Below are positions 37,519 to 44,500 of a stretch of DNA of 64,000 nucleotides, piece by piece. The DNA comes from Microbacterium sp. ProA8. GTDB taxonomy: Bacteria; Actinomycetota; Actinomycetes; Actinomycetales; Microbacteriaceae. Numbering within the stretch: position 1 is the first letter of the stretch; each line of letters begins with the position of its first letter. The stretch is taken from contig NZ_CP157000.1 in the NCBI RefSeq assembly GCF_039905635.1, positions 62,001 to 126,000 of the forward strand. The letters run 5' to 3'. The notes below the pieces were generated by a model. The model saw only the letters and a list, made by a program, of their open reading frames with translations, was not told the DNA's origin and ran no database searches. Made by a program: the position numbers and the translations under genes.

Positions 37519-38718
37519 ATGAGATTCCTGCTGGGCGGCTACACCGCCGACATGGAGGGCCGCGCAAGCGGGATCGGGATGCTGCTCGCCGGCGCCCCCG
37601 ACGACGCCTCCGCCGGTGGCGCGCTCGCGTTCGCAGGCGACGTCGCGACGACCGACTCGCCGTCGTGGCTCGCACCGCACCCGGGATCGGGGAGCCTGTC
37701 GAAGGGCGACGTCGTATACGCGGCGCTCGAGAAGCGCCGGCAGGTGCAGGCGTTCCGGCGCACCGGCGACGCGACCTTCGTGCCGCTCGGTGCACCCGTC
37801 GCGGCCGGTGAGGCGGTGTGCCATGTGGCGGTGTCGCCCGACGGCCGCTTCCTGATCGCCAGCTGCTGGGGCGACGGCCGCGTGGTCCGGATGGACCTGG
37901 ATGCCGCGGGCCGGCCGTCGTCGCCGATCCTGGCGCCTGCGGCGGTCGACCCGTACGGGCCCGATGCCGCATCCGCCCCGGCCTCGGCCGGCGACATCGA
38001 CCTCGTCGCCGCGGCCCGCGCCCTGCGCGAAGCCGCCGGAGCCGAGTATGCGCATCTCGTGCCCGATCACGGCGGCACCGACGAGGCGGCCGCGGAGGCC
38101 GACACCGATTCCGACGCGACGCGTCCGTCGCGGGCGCACCAGGCCGTCTTCCTGCCGGGCGGGCTCGTGGCGACGACCGACCTCGGGTACGACGTCGTGC
38201 GCTTCTGGCGAGACGGCGGCGATCGCCTGCGGCCGGTGCAGCAGGTGACGCTGCCGCGAGGCAGCGGACCGCGCCACATGGTCTGGCACCCGAGCGGCCA
38301 CCTGTACGTCGTCACCGAGCTGTCGTGCGAGCTGTTCGTGCTCGCGCCCTCGGCCGACGGCACGTGGCGGCTGGTGGGCGGAACGCCGCTCGGGGCGGGC
38401 ACCCTCCCCGGTGACAGCGCCGCCGAGCTGGCGCTGTCGCGCGACAGCCAGTTCGTGTACGCCGGCGTGCGCGGCAGCAACACCCTCGCGACGCTCCGCG
38501 TGCGCGGCGCCGGCGACGAGGTCGCTCCGGTCGCCCTCGTCGACTCCGGCGTCGACTGGCCGCGGCACCACGCGGTGGTGCGCGACATCCTGCTCGTCGC
38601 CGGGCAGCTCTCGGACGAGGTCGCCTCGCTCACGCTCGACACGCGCACCGGTGTGCCCGGCCGCGTGCGGCACCGCACCGACGCGCCGTCGCCGACGTGT
38701 CTGCTGCCTCTTCGCTGA
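37519..38718 (+). CDS. lactonase family beta-propeller protein (6-phosphogluconolactonase-like)
   Basis: The 399-residue protein is a seven-bladed propeller of the YbhE/3-carboxy-muconate-cyclase type. Each blade carries a short recurring strand pattern, for example VCHVAVSPDGRFLIASCWG, RHMVWHPSGHLYVVTELS and ELALSRDSQFVYAGVRGSN, the usual position-specific DG-x-x-l/v-y signature. The family includes lactonases acting on sugar-phosphate lactones, but many members are uncharacterised. A long low-complexity insert lies between residues 140 and 205. It follows purA by 123 bases and ends 53 bases before the anchored-protein operon. Confidence 0.8.
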   Translation: MRFLLGGYTADMEGRASGIGMLLAGAPDDASAGGALAFAGDVATTDSPSWLAPHPGSGSLSKGDVVYAALEKRRQVQAFRRTGDATFVPLGAPVAAGEAVCHVAVSPDGRFLIASCWGDGRVVRMDLDAAGRPSSPILAPAAVDPYGPDAASAPASAGDIDLVAAARALREAAGAEYAHLVPDHGGTDEAAAEADTDSDATRPSRAHQAVFLPGGLVATTDLGYDVVRFWRDGGDRLRPVQQVTLPRGSGPRHMVWHPSGHLYVVTELSCELFVLAPSADGTWRLVGGTPLGAGTLPGDSAAELALSRDSQFVYAGVRGSNTLATLRVRGAGDEVAPVALVDSGVDWPRHHAVVRDILLVAGQLSDEVASLTLDTRTGVPGRVRHRTDAPSPTCLLPLR

Positions 38719-38771: not shown

Positions 38772-39587
38772 ATGAGTTCGAACACGACGCTGAGCGGCGC
38801 CGCGCGGGGACGCCTGCTCGCCTTCAACGGGTTCGTCTGGATCTTCGGGCTGGTCGTCGTCATCATCATCGGCGCGGTCCTGCTCGCCGAGGCAGGCGAT
38901 GAGGTCTCTGCGTCCGACGAGTACGGGTACGAGCCGTGGCTGAACCCCGACCCGGTCCTCGCCGACGACGAGGGCGACGGCGTGTACAGCGGGGTCGACG
39001 GCGCGATGGTGCGGCTCGGCGGACTCGATCCGGCTCAGCCGCTGCTGCTCACCGAGCTCGACGGCACGTATGTCGGCCGGGTGTCGGTCACCGGTCCCGG
39101 CGGCGCGATCCTCACCGAGGGTGAATACGGCGGCCCCGCTGAGTTCGAGTCCTACCTCGCGACCGAGGGCCGCTGGGTCATCGTGCCGCAGAGCGACGTC
39201 GAACTCTGGATCGACGGGTTCAGCGACGAGCGCTGGCGCATGAAGATCACCACGCCGCCTGTCGAGCCGCGCTCCGGCACGGTGAGCGGATTCGGCCCGG
39301 CGGTGTTCGCTCTCGACGGGAACGCCACCACGGCGCGCGTCAGCTCGCGCGGCGAGGGCCGCGTGAGCATCGAGACCGTCACCGAGAACGGCATCACGGA
39401 GGTGTTCAGCGAGAACGAGCCCACCGACCGCTCGATCGCGTGGGCCGACGGCCGGCCCGTGCTGTTCGTGATCGACGCCTGGGACGACGCCGGCTGGACC
39501 ATCGATTTTCCGGAGGATGCGGCATCCACCCCCGCGGGAACAGCCGCGCCGACGCCCGAGCCGACCGTCACAGGGGTGAGCCCCTGA
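38772..39587 (+). CDS. membrane-anchored extracytoplasmic protein, first of a pair
   Basis: The 271-residue protein has an N-terminal single helix (NGFVWIFGLVVVIIIGAVLL, residues about 17-36), then a large outer domain beginning with an acidic linker and the landmark EPWLNPDPVLAD. It has several beta-rich stretches (AMVRLGGLDPAQPLLLTEL, RISSR-like VSSRGEGRVSIETV) and a Pro/Thr-rich tail. I do not recognise the family. The stop overlaps the start of the next gene by one base, and that gene has the same layout. First gene of the AAA/radical-SAM operon; a TATAGC at 38740 may be its -10 box. Confidence 0.65.
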   Translation: MSSNTTLSGAARGRLLAFNGFVWIFGLVVVIIIGAVLLAEAGDEVSASDEYGYEPWLNPDPVLADDEGDGVYSGVDGAMVRLGGLDPAQPLLLTELDGTYVGRVSVTGPGGAILTEGEYGGPAEFESYLATEGRWVIVPQSDVELWIDGFSDERWRMKITTPPVEPRSGTVSGFGPAVFALDGNATTARVSSRGEGRVSIETVTENGITEVFSENEPTDRSIAWADGRPVLFVIDAWDDAGWTIDFPEDAASTPAGTAAPTPEPTVTGVSP

Positions 39588-40384
39588 TGGCAGGCGCCGA
39601 GCGGATTCGGCGGTTCTCGCTCGTGACCTGGATCGTCGGCACCATCGTCATCGCGGCGATCGCCTTCACCGTGCTGCCGCAGGTGGCGGTGAACCCGCAG
39701 ACCGGCGACGTCTACGTGGGCGAACCCGGCGAGGACGACTACCAGCCGTGGCTCGCCGACGATCCGCAGGAGTACGAGATCGTGGACGGCCTGATCGACG
39801 GCACCGCCGCGGGCGGCTTTCTGCGGATCGACGGGGGCTCCGACCTCCTTATGCTCGAGAATCCCGAGGGAGCCGGCGAAGCCGACTGGGTGCGCGTCTT
39901 CCAGCAGCAGGGCGTCGAGTTCGACGTCGATTCCGAGCAGTGGCAGTACCCGGCCTACCTCGGCTCGCTGTACCCCGATTCCGACGTCCTGGTGCTGCCG
40001 GGCGCGGAGGACGGGCTGCTGTGGTTCTCGCCCTCGCTCACCGACTGGACCGCGCGCGTCTCGACACCGGAGGTGCTGCCGATGGGCGAGACCGCCACCG
40101 GTCAGGGCAACGCGGTGCTGGTGTACGAGGGCGAGGCGCTGAGCGGCCGGTTCCAGCACACCGGGAGCGGCCTGTTCATGGTCGCGGTCGTGACCGTCGG
40201 CGGGTGGGACCTCCTCGTGAACGAGTTCGATGAGGTGGACGTCCGCGCCTCCTGGGAGCCGACGGATCGCGTCGTCTTCCAGGTCGAGGCCGACACGGGC
40301 GAAGGCTCCTGGACCATCGCGCTCGACACGCCCGCGGGCGATCCCACCCCCTCGACCACCCCGACACCCGCGCCGACGCCATGA
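39587..40384 (+). CDS. membrane-anchored extracytoplasmic protein, second of a pair
   Basis: The 265-residue protein repeats the layout of its upstream neighbour: an N-terminal helix (TWIVGTIVIAAIAFTVLPQV), an acidic linker, YQPWLADDPQEYE at the same place as EPWLNPDPVLAD, a beta-rich outer domain, and a TP-rich tail (TPSTTPTPAPTP). The match in order but weak identity suggests an old duplication. It starts on the last base of the previous stop codon. The AAA+ ATPase gene starts 28 bases on. The role may be sensing or binding something outside the cell; this is inference. Confidence 0.65.
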   Translation: MAGAERIRRFSLVTWIVGTIVIAAIAFTVLPQVAVNPQTGDVYVGEPGEDDYQPWLADDPQEYEIVDGLIDGTAAGGFLRIDGGSDLLMLENPEGAGEADWVRVFQQQGVEFDVDSEQWQYPAYLGSLYPDSDVLVLPGAEDGLLWFSPSLTDWTARVSTPEVLPMGETATGQGNAVLVYEGEALSGRFQHTGSGLFMVAVVTVGGWDLLVNEFDEVDVRASWEPTDRVVFQVEADTGEGSWTIALDTPAGDPTPSTTPTPAPTP

Positions 40385-40412
40385 CGCGGCATCCGATCGA
40401 CAAGGAGCAGAC

Positions 40413-42035
40413 GTGACGTTCGCCGACACTCTCACCGAGGCGTTCAAGGCGCGCCTTCCGCTGCTGTACATCGAGACGGGCGAGGAGGTGCGCGCGATCG
40501 GCGCGATCTCGGACGCGGCCGAGACGCAGCGGCACCCGCGCGCGCTGTGGACGTGGACCGCCGCCCTCGGGCTGCTCGGCCCTGACGGCAAGGCCGTGGC
40601 GAACACGGCCAACCCGGCGCGGGCCCTCCAGCACGTCGCCGGCGTCCACGAGCCGAGCGTGTTCGTCTTCTGCGACCTGCACGCCTACTTCGGCGGCGAG
40701 CACCGCGCCGGCGACCCCGCTCTCGTGCGCACCGTACGCGAGACGGCGCTCGAGTTCCGTCACGGCGACGTGTCGCGCACCCTCGTGATCACGGCTCCGG
40801 TGCGGGTCATCCCGCCCGAGCTCGACGAGGTCACGCACCTGCTCGACTTCCCGCTGCCGACCGCGGCCGAGATCCGCGAGCTCCTCGAGACGATGATCGA
40901 CAACAACGCGTCGGGCGACGGCAGGATCCGGGTGGATGCCGACGACACCGCCCGCGACCAGCTCGTGCACGCGGCACTCGGCCTGTCGATGGCCGAGGCC
41001 GAGAACGCGTTCGCCCGCGCGATGGTGAACGACGGGCGTCTGTCGGGGCAGGACGTGCCGATCGTGCTCGACGAGAAGCGCCAGGTCGTCCGCAAGTCCG
41101 GCGTCCTCGAGTTCGTGCGGGCCGAGATCGATCTCGACGACGTCGGCGGGCTCAACAACCTCAAGCGCTGGCTGTCGCGCCGTGACGGCTCGTGGCTCGG
41201 CGACGCGCGCGCGTACGGACTGCCGGCGCCGAAGGGCGTGCTCATCACCGGCGTCCCCGGCTGCGGCAAGTCGCTGACCGCGAAGGCGACCGCGGCGTCG
41301 TGGGGGCTGCCGCTGCTGCGGCTGGACATCGGCCGCATCTTCTCGGGTCTCGTCGGCTCGAGCGAGCAGAACCTTCGCACGGCGATCGCGACCGCCGAGG
41401 CCGTCGCGCCCTGCGTGCTGTGGGTCGACGAGATCGAGAAGGGGTTCTCGAACACCACCGGTCAGGGCGACTCGGGTACGACCGCACGCGTCTTCGGCAC
41501 CTTCCTCACCTGGATGCAGGAGAAGCGGCACCCGGTGTTCGTCGTCGCGACCGCCAACAACATCGACGCGCTGCCGCCGGAGTTCCTGCGCAAGGGCCGG
41601 TTCGACGAGATCTTCTTCGTCGACCTGCCGACGGCCCACGAGCGCGAGGTGATCTGGCGGCTGCAGCTGCGCTCGCGCGCCACCGACGCGAACGGACTCG
41701 AGGCGGTGGCGTCCGACGACGCGGCGATCGCGGCGCTCGTGGCCGCGAGCGAGAACCACTCCGGTGCCGAGATCGAGCAGTCGGTCGTCTCGGCGCTGTA
41801 CGAGGGCTTCACCACCCGCGGCGAGGTGACGGCCGACGTGGTGCGGCAGGTCGTGGATACGATGATCCCGCTCGCCGTGACTCAGGCCGAAGAGGTGCAG
41901 CGCATCCGCACGTGGGCGACCGAGCGCGCGGTGCGTGCCACCGGCAGCGAGGATCTGGACCCGGCCGAATCGGCCGGCGCTGTCGCCGAGGGCGCACTGT
42001 CGTCGCGTCGCGGCGGCCGCACCGTCGACTATTGA
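40413..42035 (+). CDS. Ycf46-like AAA+ ATPase
   Basis: The 540-residue protein has a Ycf46-type architecture: an N-terminal half of about 220 residues (VTFADTLTEAFKARLPLLYI at the start), then an AAA+ module with Walker A GVPGCGKSLTAKA (residues ~280-292), Walker B CVLWVDEIEKGF, sensor-1 VATANNIDALP and the arginine-finger region LRKGRFDEIFFVDLP. It should use ATP to remodel a protein partner in the cytoplasm. Ycf46 is known from plastids and cyanobacteria. The GTG start sits behind AAGGAG. Next to it are DUF2997, radical SAM and DUF1257-like genes, an arrangement that suggests one machine. Confidence 0.85.
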   Translation: MTFADTLTEAFKARLPLLYIETGEEVRAIGAISDAAETQRHPRALWTWTAALGLLGPDGKAVANTANPARALQHVAGVHEPSVFVFCDLHAYFGGEHRAGDPALVRTVRETALEFRHGDVSRTLVITAPVRVIPPELDEVTHLLDFPLPTAAEIRELLETMIDNNASGDGRIRVDADDTARDQLVHAALGLSMAEAENAFARAMVNDGRLSGQDVPIVLDEKRQVVRKSGVLEFVRAEIDLDDVGGLNNLKRWLSRRDGSWLGDARAYGLPAPKGVLITGVPGCGKSLTAKATAASWGLPLLRLDIGRIFSGLVGSSEQNLRTAIATAEAVAPCVLWVDEIEKGFSNTTGQGDSGTTARVFGTFLTWMQEKRHPVFVVATANNIDALPPEFLRKGRFDEIFFVDLPTAHEREVIWRLQLRSRATDANGLEAVASDDAAIAALVAASENHSGAEIEQSVVSALYEGFTTRGEVTADVVRQVVDTMIPLAVTQAEEVQRIRTWATERAVRATGSEDLDPAESAGAVAEGALSSRRGGRTVDY

Positions 42036-42089
42036 GCACCGCGGACTGTTGACGACCACCATCGCCGCCGACGGAAGGATGACGAGATC

Positions 42090-42305
42090 ATGGCCAAGCA
42101 GCTCGTGGTGAGGCTCCGCGCCGACGGCACCGTCGACGCCGAGACCATCGGCATGCACGGCGCGGAGTGCCTGGATCACATCGAGGCGCTCGAGGCGTTG
42201 CTCGACGCCGAGACCGTCTCGTCGCGCTTCACCGAGGACTACGCGACCGCGTCGGTGGAGGGCCGGACCCGGCTCGAGGCCGAGCAGACGGACGGCGCCT
42301 CATGA
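42090..42305 (+). CDS. DUF2997 domain mini-protein with GxxGxxC motif
   Basis: The 71-residue protein starts with two strands (KQLVVRLRADGTVDAETIG), then GMHGAECLDHIEALEALLD, which contains the G-x-x-G-x-x-C signature of the DUF2997 family, and ends in a charged tail. The single cysteine is the obvious functional residue. Relatives occur beside Ycf46 and DUF1257 genes. It lies 54 bases after the ATPase and its stop overlaps the radical SAM start (ATGA), so the two proteins should be made together. It may be a carrier, substrate or cofactor-binding partner of that enzyme; this is inference. Confidence 0.8.
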   Translation: MAKQLVVRLRADGTVDAETIGMHGAECLDHIEALEALLDAETVSSRFTEDYATASVEGRTRLEAEQTDGAS

Positions 42306-43084
42306 CGCCCGTCGCGCAGTCACCGGGCGTCGGCGGCGGGACCTCGCTCCTCGGCACGGTCGAGCCGGTGCGACGGGCCGATGCGGGGACGCCGCCCACG
42401 CTGCGCTGGTCGCGGTTCCTCGCGGCCACGGAGGCGGAGGGGCCGGGGGTGCGCGCCGCGGTCTGGCTGCAGGGATGCGCCGTGCACTGCCCCGAGTGCT
42501 TCAACCCGCAGCTGTGGGCCGACCGCGGCGGTCTCGTCGGGGCCGCCGACGTACTCGCGGCCGAGTGGGTCGAGAGTGCGACGGCGGCCGGGGCGGAGGG
42601 CGTGACCCTGCTCGGCGGCGAGCCTTTCGATCAGGCGGCGGCTGCGGCATCCGTCGCCCGCGCCTTCCGCGCAGCGGGCCTCGGCGTCATGACCTTCACC
42701 GGCTATCCGCTCGACCGCCTCGCCGCGTGGGCCGCCGGCGGTCGCGACGACATCGCGGCGCTGCTCGACGCCACCGACCTCCTCTGCGACGGGCCGTACC
42801 TGCGCGGCCTGCCCGACGTGGGGCGCCCCTGGGTGGGCTCGCGCAACCAGGGCATCCGCGCGCTCACCGATCGGTACGCCGACGACGTGCGCCGCATCGC
42901 CACCGCCGGTGGCGCCGACCGCATCGAGGTGCGAATCGCCCGCGACGGCACCGTCGCGGTGAACGGCTGGGCGACGGATGCCGCGCTCGCCGCCCTGCTG
43001 GACGACCTCGGCTCGCGGGCCGACAGTCCCGCGCAGGTCGCGGCGGGAAGACAGGCACGAACGAGAGTGGAGGCCGCGCGATGA
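42302..43084 (+). CDS. single-cluster radical SAM protein (activase-like)
   Basis: The 260-residue protein binds one 4Fe-4S cluster through C59-x3-C63-x2-C66 in WLQGCAVHCPECFNP, the classical radical SAM triad in the form used by ribonucleotide-reductase and pyruvate-formate-lyase activases. GVTLLGGEPFDQ follows near residue 101, binding SAM. The C-terminal half is larger than in NrdG-type activases and has GPYLRGLPDVGRPWVGS. It has no auxiliary cluster cysteines. The start overlaps the DUF2997 stop and its stop overlaps the next start, so its partners are very probably encoded in this operon. The substrate is unknown. Confidence 0.85.
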   Translation: MTPVAQSPGVGGGTSLLGTVEPVRRADAGTPPTLRWSRFLAATEAEGPGVRAAVWLQGCAVHCPECFNPQLWADRGGLVGAADVLAAEWVESATAAGAEGVTLLGGEPFDQAAAAASVARAFRAAGLGVMTFTGYPLDRLAAWAAGGRDDIAALLDATDLLCDGPYLRGLPDVGRPWVGSRNQGIRALTDRYADDVRRIATAGGADRIEVRIARDGTVAVNGWATDAALAALLDDLGSRADSPAQVAAGRQARTRVEAAR

Positions 43085-43602
43085 GCGTGTCGCTGATCCT
43101 GATCCCCGCGGCGCTCGCCGCTGTCACCGCGATCACCGCCGCCGGCGGCATCGGCGCGCTGTCGCAGACCGGAGGGGTCCGCGACGACGACCGCGCCGGC
43201 ACGGACGCCACCGCCCGCACCGGTCCCCGCCCGATCTCGGTGCGCACCCGCATGAAGGACCCCGACCTGCTCGCCGACGCCCTCCGCGACATCGGCGCGA
43301 CGGAGCTCGCGCGGCAGGGCGACGACGTCGCCGCGGTGATCGACGGCGTCGAGCTCACGATGACGCGCACGCCGGAGGGCGTGTGGGGCGCGCACTTCCG
43401 GCGCCCGGACGGTCTCGAACTCGCCGAGGCCGATGCCGCGGCTCTCGTCGAGCGGCTGGACGCCGCCTACGCGCTGCGGGTGCAGCAGACGGTCGCGGCG
43501 CGCATCCGCGAGCGCGCGGCATCCGCGGGCTTCGAGCTCGTGTCCGAGACGCGCGACGACGACACCGTCACGATGGTGCTGGACGTGAAGGACTACGCAT
43601 GA
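43081..43602 (+). CDS. DUF1257/Ycf35-like protein with N-terminal membrane helix
   Basis: The 173-residue protein has an N-terminal hydrophobic helix (LILIPAALAAVTAITAAGG), a short linker, and then a domain with the DUF1257 (Ycf35) order: MKDPDLLADALRDIGATEL, a beta region with VWGAHFRRPDGLEL, and the end pattern YALRVQQTVAARIRERAASA, then GFELVSETRDDDTVTMVLDV. Ycf35-like genes stand next to Ycf46 and DUF2997 genes elsewhere. Free DUF1257 proteins are usually soluble, so the added helix is unusual. It is coupled to both neighbours by ATGA overlaps. Confidence 0.65.
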   Translation: MSVSLILIPAALAAVTAITAAGGIGALSQTGGVRDDDRAGTDATARTGPRPISVRTRMKDPDLLADALRDIGATELARQGDDVAAVIDGVELTMTRTPEGVWGAHFRRPDGLELAEADAAALVERLDAAYALRVQQTVAARIRERAASAGFELVSETRDDDTVTMVLDVKDYA

Positions 43603-44459
43603 GCACCTCCACCCGGATGGGCACCGCGCAGGACGCCCCGAGCATCCCATGGATGCTCGGTATGAGCTCGTGGATGCTGCTGACGGTCATTCCCGGACCG
43701 ATCGTCACCTGGCTCGGCTTCTCGATCATCGGGGTCGCGTCTCGCAGCAGGCGCCTCCTCATCCTCGCCGTGGTGTGGGGTGCGGCCGCGATCCTGGTGA
43801 GCCTCGAGATCTGGGGGCAGTGGCAGCCGCTCCTCCGCGGGATCGTCTATCTCTCGGGCATGCTCGTCGCCCTCATGGTGAACCCGGGATGGCTCCGTAC
43901 GATGTGGCAGCGGCGCCTCGACCGGGTGAGCGGGAGCGGGGATTCCCCGTCGCGGACGGGCGCGACCGCCTCCGGTCGGCCCTCCGGCTCGGGTGCGAGC
44001 ACGAGGAAGCCCACTGCGCGGTCGTCGCGGCGCTCCCGGGCCGCCACGAAGGCCGAAGCCGACAGGAAGGCGCAGGCGCAGGCACAGGCGAAGGCCGAAG
44101 AAGCGACCCGGGCGAAGGCTGACGAAGCGTCCCGCGAGAAGGCCGATCACGCGGACCGGCTCGCGGCGGCGGCGGGCGCGTCGCCGTCCGACTACCTCGA
44201 GCCCGGTGCCCCCGCCCCGGCTCCGATCGACGTCAACACCGCGCCCGCCGCCGACCTCGAGGAGCTGCCCGGCATGACCCGCTCGCGTGCGCGCCGGGCG
44301 GTCAAGGAGCGCGAAGCGCAGGGCGGCTTCACGTCCGTCGAGGACTTCGGCGAGGCCGTGGGCCTGCAGCCGCATGAGATCGTGCGGCTGCGCAAGCTCG
44401 CGACCTGCTCGCCACGCCCCCGGGGCGAGCGCCGCTTCGGCCGTCGCGTCGACTACTGA
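43599..44459 (+). CDS. membrane protein with C-terminal ComEA-like helix-hairpin-helix
   Basis: The 286-residue protein has three to four hydrophobic segments in the first 95 residues (WMLGMSSWMLLTVIPG, TWLGFSIIGVASR, LILAVVWGAAAILVSL, IVYLSGMLVALMV). A basic, alanine-rich coiled middle (KAEADRKAQAQAQAKAEEA) follows. The C-terminus is a ComEA-type HhH: IDVNTAPAADLEELPGMTRS and then VEDFGEAVGLQPHEIVRLRK. HhH motifs bind DNA backbone or pack with protein. It is the last gene of the operon, and a perfect hairpin terminator follows. Its role with the ATPase and radical SAM enzyme is unknown. Confidence 0.75.
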   Translation: MSTSTRMGTAQDAPSIPWMLGMSSWMLLTVIPGPIVTWLGFSIIGVASRSRRLLILAVVWGAAAILVSLEIWGQWQPLLRGIVYLSGMLVALMVNPGWLRTMWQRRLDRVSGSGDSPSRTGATASGRPSGSGASTRKPTARSSRRSRAATKAEADRKAQAQAQAKAEEATRAKADEASREKADHADRLAAAAGASPSDYLEPGAPAPAPIDVNTAPAADLEELPGMTRSRARRAVKEREAQGGFTSVEDFGEAVGLQPHEIVRLRKLATCSPRPRGERRFGRRVDY

Positions 44460-44467
44460 GGCCGGGA

Positions 44468-44500
44468 GTGACGGATGCCGCGGGCCGCGGCATCCGTCAC
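44468..44500. terminator. bidirectional hairpin terminator, 15-bp stem
   Basis: GTGACGGATGCCGCG and its exact complement, with a 3-base loop, start nine bases after the last stop codon of the AAA/radical-SAM operon. The convergent AI-2E family gene ends 54 bases on, so the same hairpin can stop both transcripts. Confidence 0.85.

Follow-up and report, generated by a model that had tools for sequence, protein, structure and literature searches.

A mobile module of five genes, two of whose unrelated products end in the same short peptide, lies within the window, by which we mean the whole stretch of 64,000 nucleotides from Microbacterium sp. ProA8. Seven genes that we call A to G run there in one direction on the + strand across positions 38772-44459, as a sequence-only reading had described. 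The combination that it proposed, a coupled operon joining a Ycf46-type ATPase (C), a DUF2997 protein (D), a single-cluster radical S-adenosylmethionine (SAM) enzyme (E), a DUF1257 relative (F) and an HhH membrane protein (G), proved to be conserved. The one-strand co-occurrence of these five genes, their sporadic spread and their copies on plasmids lead us to conclude that C, D, E, F and G are one co-inherited module, which is real, accessory and mobile. The earlier statement that no described function is known for the combination agrees with our literature search, which covered few subscription papers and gave no description of the module or of the tag. Three features are absent from that reading: a C-terminal tag that C has in common with G, the Gly and the Cys that never vary in the DUF2997 protein, and the plasmid copies.

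Using an alignment of C as the query, we searched a collection of species genomes and took 80 loci (the best of 548, selected by C), which together with the window and locus L005 make up the locus set; 56 of these loci carry E. In 49 of the 56 E-containing loci all five genes are grouped on a single strand, F being recognised by its own profile. Five of the seven exceptions stop at a contig end close to C, and two, L060 and L071, are real. Short stretches of already counted genomes (L001-L003) were excluded from these completeness counts and from the tag counts given below, and because open reading frames (ORFs) were called mechanically from their longest starts, some lengths of D, E, F and G are inflated. 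With repeats of G included, the 49 complete loci fall into 17 order strings across seven named phyla, with some records bearing no phylum name: GECFD occurs in Melainabacteria, CFDGE and CDEFG in Actinomycetota, CDFGE and DGECF in Bacillota, and other strings in Bacteroidota, Planctomycetota, Armatimonadota and Fusobacteriota. The neighbours do not vary freely, and of the ordered co-occurrence that had been anticipated, the co-occurrence is borne out for the five genes C to G but a fixed gene order across phyla is not.

The spread of the module within its own lineage is sporadic. An E-based search matched 10 of 199 Microbacteriaceae genomes, one of these matches (G942) being an NrdG look-alike, so that true E is present in 9 of 199. 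Besides the window there are eight further E-matched Microbacteriaceae loci; seven of them have all five genes, and the remaining one, a contig of 3.3 kb, holds C, D and E. DUF2997 is likewise rare by Pfam, with matches in 2 of 23 genomes of the genus (the window's own counted) and in 3 of 396 within the phylum, two of these over the cut-off. Plasmid records matching C at 1e-40 number 667, of which 40 do so over at least 80% of C. Among four plasmid regions that we examined, the three actinobacterial ones hold C-F-D-G-E; pZXY22 and the Rhodococcus plasmid are typed as conjugative, and Paenarthrobacter pC as non-mobilizable. The Treponema succinifaciens plasmid pTRESU01 (L229, 56560-70023) carries C and E, but the 13.5 kb examined yielded neither D nor F nor G. 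On this plasmid the relatives of C and E directly precede a gene annotated as phage baseplate assembly protein V, which may connect them with a contractile-injection-type locus.

The second main observation concerns the ends of the proteins. C and G, which are unrelated, share the ending (G/E)-R-x-(V/I/L)-D-(F/L/I/Y/V/W)-COOH. In C this takes the form RGGRxphiD[FYVI] after a hypervariable linker. The window's ATPase ends RGGRTVDY (42009-42032, + strand) and its HhH protein GRRVDY (44439-44456, + strand), in each case followed by the stop codon. Across E-positive loci the strict tag is present in 65 of 69 G and 46 of 56 C, compared with none of 50 D, 55 E and 53 F and a single one of 553 other ORFs; within protein sequences it occurs at a rate of 0.001 per position. 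In loci without E, from which L004, L006 and L007 were additionally excluded for these counts, it is present on 7 of 26 C and on all 3 G. The listed database homologues behave in the same way: among the best 120 of 174 for G, of 7999 for C and of 155 for F, a set that includes the window's own ATPase and near-identical ones, many named Microbacterium, the tag ends 119 G, 118 C and no F. The misses are one 432-residue multi-domain match to G and two shorter C proteins. The sole other tagged protein in E-positive loci is an Mrr-type nuclease (Mrr_cat) that adjoins G in locus L033 (7809-8549); this protein has a restriction endonuclease domain of that type and hydrophobic N-terminal segments, is unrelated to G, and ends GRRLDV.

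We scanned 12 genomes for the tag with patterns that required Gly (eight genomes) or a GRN codon (four genomes) before the Arg, together with a penultimate Asp and certain final codons. In the eight genomes, 33 of 85 listed pattern sites read as the tag; 18 of these lie at the end of C or G, and 15 close no ORF of at least 50 amino acids. The four genomes, two bearing the name Gastranaerophilales, all come from gut bacteria; of their 29 sites, 14 fall at the end of C or G and the remaining ones at that of no ORF of at least 45 amino acids. Thus, within the 12 genomes scanned and the limits of the patterns, the tag belongs to the module alone. We reject the idea that it serves as a genome-wide targeting signal, since, across these genomes and within the same limits, it ended module genes alone. 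The tag offers a first point of entry to the module, and because it is short and can be synthesised as a bait, the role of Ycf46 and Ycf35 becomes testable by one pull-down.

Gene C (40413-42035, + strand, GTG start) encodes a Ycf46/Cdc48-like AAA+ ATPase of 540 amino acids, with an N-terminal half of its own and a variable C-terminal linker. It matches AAA (PF00004) in Pfam at 2.6e-30, and Walker A, Walker B and the motif RKGRFDEIFFV are kept in 20 of 20 rows of the C alignment. Its homologues carry database names of the SpoVK/Ycf46/Vps4 family, and among solved structures NVL and Cdc48 are nearest to it in sequence. Gene G (43599-44459, + strand) encodes 286 amino acids, with hydrophobic N-terminal segments, a long linker, an HHH_3 domain (9.8e-13 in Pfam) and the tag. 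The N-terminal part of G-type proteins varies, comprising membrane segments, GYF_2, TPR or repeated HhH, and in an alignment of 15 diverse G the only invariant columns are the Arg and Asp of the tag. Many tagged homologues (P0241-P0360) bear database names of ComEA family DNA-binding or DNA uptake proteins. The window's G scores 27.6 bits against NCBIfam comE, far under the cut-off of 152.35, and on this cut-off, the tag and the context we reject a free-standing ComEA function for it. The naming is probably a misannotation spread from the HhH domain, and these so-called ComEA proteins look like tagged partners of the module. A rumen bacterium has seven tandem G-type ORFs, all tagged, ahead of E-C-F-D (L035:3296-8338), an expanding set of partners. 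Elsewhere (L056:4244-6295) a Ser/Thr protein kinase gene in a module locus adjoins a tagged G with many hydrophobic segments.

The three untagged members are D, E and F. Gene D (42090-42305, + strand, 71 amino acids) is firmly assigned to DUF2997, in keeping with the sequence-only reading: PF11211 matches at 2.5e-12 with 46.9 bits, above the curated cut-off of 24.1. Its Gly13 and Cys27 are invariant in 60 of 60 alignment rows. For gene F (43081-43602, + strand, 173 amino acids, with a hydrophobic N-terminus beginning MS) the earlier DUF1257 assignment fails in Pfam, where neither F nor any of 22 members of the F alignment matches DUF1257 (PF06868) and F has no accepted match at all, but it stands in profile-profile comparison. 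There, hhalign aligns the F family with classical DUF1257 proteins over 111 columns (probability 92, E 6.5e-7). An iterative family grown from F takes in Pfam-accepted DUF1257 proteins from L072 (1.3e-19), L062 and L087, and some homologues bear the UniRef name DUF1257. We therefore regard F as a diverged relative of DUF1257 whose N-terminus is hydrophobic.

Gene E (42302-43084, + strand, 260 amino acids) encodes a radical SAM enzyme resembling NrdG and PFL activase, with CxxxCxxC, GGEP and a C-terminal extension. Pfam gives Fer4_12 at 6.1e-27 and a weak Radical_SAM match, and the CxxxCxxC cluster motif and SAM motif GGE are kept in 26 of 26 rows. The window's E matches NCBIfam NrdG at 4.1e-21 with 75.5 bits, below the curated equivalog cut-off of 126.1. 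For the homologue in L023, PFL-activating enzyme is nearest by sequence among solved chains. The C-terminal part of E (42857-43081 in the window) and the start of DUF2997 (42090-42302) have a common beta-hairpin signature, about IxVxIxxDGxV, over 18 hhalign columns. A cyanobacterial ORF near E and C (L060:13718-14179) appears to resemble an N-terminal helical region fused to a Cys-keeping, DUF2997-like part.

How these parts might work together can be put as a model. We tentatively propose, with a confidence somewhat short of even, a membrane-tied AAA+ remodelling machine in which C and G are gathered via one private tag and the radical SAM enzyme activates a component of the module. We infer its steps as follows, from the docking to the output. 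On the cytoplasmic side of the membrane F and D would make up an adaptor, and the tag would dock C and G-type proteins onto a shared receptor site of this adaptor, with F the likeliest reader. C would then spend ATP on remodelling the G-type partner docked there, or on releasing it. E would activate or modify a module component, and by elimination the best candidate for this component is D, in which a Gly and a Cys are invariant; no family beyond C to G occurs in more than 8 of the 56 loci, these clusters being unnamed and the neighbours not searched with glycyl radical enzyme profiles. In Synechocystis a DUF2997-Ycf35 pair is clustered with the ferredoxin Fed7 (PMC4284462), and E may fill the same electron-handling place, standing in for that ferredoxin. 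The physiological output would probably be the handling of membrane or redox stress. This suggestion draws on the slr0373-slr0374-slr0376 operon, an ATPase-DUF1257 operon that is stress-responsive and of unknown function, and on the reduced activity of EcaB when Ycf46 is inactivated, both as reported in one study (PMC7496141), and otherwise on the domains of the G proteins only.

Several observations weigh against this proposal. The invariant Cys of D is retained in loci without E, so it need not be E's substrate. Both real exceptions to the complete module, L060 and L071, have E but a C without the strict tag; L013 and L016 have a tagged G and an untagged C; and in L062, L068 and L076 D and F are present, yet C ends without a tail. 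Among 11 cyanobacterial C with no E and no DUF1257 neighbour detected, seven are tailless, two end R[ML]EF and two IRQEW. On pTRESU01, C has the tag-like end RKLEM beside E where no D, F or G was found, which favours E over F and D. When the association between tail and neighbours was corrected for kinship (L001-L004, L006, L007, L040, L066 and L085 excluded; Fisher values are uncorrected), there were seven supported independent pairs with a median sign-test p of 0.25 to 1, and a link of the tail to any single neighbour does not survive the correction. AlphaFold models of the tag followed by D or by F gave the tag a mean pLDDT (predicted local distance difference test) of 50-61 and did not support docking; these models were built by stop-codon read-through, and the tag in them is without a free carboxylate. 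The hydrophobic N-terminus of F was modelled at low confidence in the L041 homologue.

Some of these findings bear on another possibility, that the tag is itself the substrate of E, which would modify the tail of C and G by a cross-link, an epimerisation or a backbone radical and so lock or license the complex. E is similar to activases whose target is a short loop of a protein, its loci nearly always have tagged G and mostly tagged C (the 65 of 69 and 46 of 56 given above), and the Treponema plasmid pairs it with a tag-like C end in the apparent absence of D, F and G. However, related R-phi-E-F tails occur on cyanobacterial C with no E found alongside, and L060 and L071 carry E with a C lacking the strict tag. 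In addition, 23 of 65 G tags have Glu instead of Gly before the Arg, which means that a glycyl radical there is not a general feature. On balance we regard modification of the tag by E as rather unlikely.

The tag could also be a pulling handle, gripped by the AAA+ pore so that G is extracted or unfolded, with the ATPase's own tag serving as an autoinhibitory copy. The terminal position of the tag in C and G alike, after a variable and probably unfolded linker, would suit such a handle, as would the intact AAA+ motifs of C and its likeness to NVL and Cdc48. Cyanobacterial C, however, keeps such a tail where no G was found alongside, and we consider this explanation unlikely.

In a role in anti-phage or anti-plasmid defence, the module would combine its AAA+ ATPase with an HhH effector of the DNA-binding type and, in L033, with the tagged Mrr nuclease. 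The sporadic spread within the Microbacteriaceae and the plasmid copies are consistent with such a role, and PADLOC matches C to IetA ATPase models (best 7.1e-24), to TRIP13 and, weakly, to mads_8. However, PADLOC gave no match for A, B, D, F or G and for E only viperin at 0.054, and a genome of the same genus has the operon beside the same upstream gene. With respect to IetAS in particular, the six other proteins of the operon have no match to an Iet model, IetS included. We take defence to be distinctly improbable. That the genes are mere neighbours in an ordinary operon, a ComEA-like DNA uptake gene beside separate ones, would fit the database names (ComEA family for many G homologues, 4Fe-4S single cluster protein for E), but with 49 of 56 loci complete in permuted order, plasmid copies and a shared tag it is hardly credible.

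The docking machine that we favour has partial counterparts among known systems. In p97/Cdc48, with its C-terminal HbYX-type tail, and in Vps4 systems, with C-terminal MIM motifs, short C-terminal peptides dock on adaptor domains; the module differs in that the peptide is another one and that the ATPase and its partner bear the same one. In the cyanobacterial and plastid Ycf46 (slr0374) operon, the AAA+ C family adjoins a DUF1257 protein, whose gene we take to be slr0373, and C ends in the R-phi-E-F type. Neither a radical SAM enzyme nor an HhH protein was found beside the cyanobacterial C genes that we examined. The DUF2997-Ycf35-Fed7 cluster (PMC4284462) similarly places DUF2997 and DUF1257 next to each other. 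Compared with both systems, the 4Fe-4S partner in the module is an NrdG-like enzyme, and a second protein is also tagged. From NrdG and PFL-activating enzymes, the glycyl radical activases with which E shares CxxxCxxC, GGEP and GSxN[QK], E is set apart by its score below the NrdG cut-off, by its extra C-terminal part and by its company, since six NrdG look-alike loci that we examined contained none of C, D, F or G. G has HHH_3 in common with ComEA and with GspK of the type II secretion system, and homologues named ComEA, but falls far under the ComEA cut-off, ends in the tag and has varied N-terminal parts.

In cyanobacteria and algal plastids, Ycf46, DUF1257 (Ycf35) and DUF2997 are orphan families, and the module is a compact, plasmid-borne form of this set in other bacteria, with two extra partners. 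It is possible, though we would not call it probable, that it represents an undescribed class of machine, a radical-SAM-activated AAA+ remodelling complex, moved between lineages by plasmids and assembled by means of a private C-terminal address peptide on the motor and on diversifying membrane and DNA-handling effectors. In operons with C, F and D but no E, a protein with CxxC pairs and a predicted C-terminal hydrophobic segment lies between C and F (L072:10506-11210, L079:10561-11259, L076:7508-8278 and L064:6424-7185), and in L062 and L087 a putative TPR-like protein between F and D takes its place.

The two remaining genes of the operon are A (38772-39587, + strand, 271 amino acids), which encodes one N-terminal hydrophobic segment and a putative extracytoplasmic domain, and its paralog B (39587-40384, + strand, 265 amino acids; 27% identity to A). 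Neither has an accepted Pfam match. They had been taken for an anchored sensor pair forming part of the system, but they are present in only 5 of the 56 module loci and we reject them as members; being found in seven of the eight further Microbacteriaceae loci, they are lineage-specific accessories. With A and B outside the module, the suggestion that it senses outside conditions is left without general support.

The coupling between genes is less extensive than the five overlapping boundaries first reported. Only four of six overlap (A/B by 1 nucleotide; D/E, E/F and F/G by 4 nucleotides each), with gaps of 28 nucleotides between B and C and of 54 between C and D. A hairpin 3' of the operon (44468-44500, + strand) has the perfect 15-bp stem that had been noted, with a 3-nucleotide loop, and a 106-nucleotide stretch around it folds with z = -4.5; as it lacks a T-run and the terminator scan has no entry there, its status as a terminator is unproven. 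Neighbouring genes of the window putatively encode a lactonase and an adenylosuccinate synthetase, among others. Upstream, the same gene precedes the operon in the window (37519-38718) and in a second genome of the genus (L005:2476-3585). DUF2997 has no match in 21 of 23 genomes of the genus, which could reflect either loss or local re-acquisition at one site.

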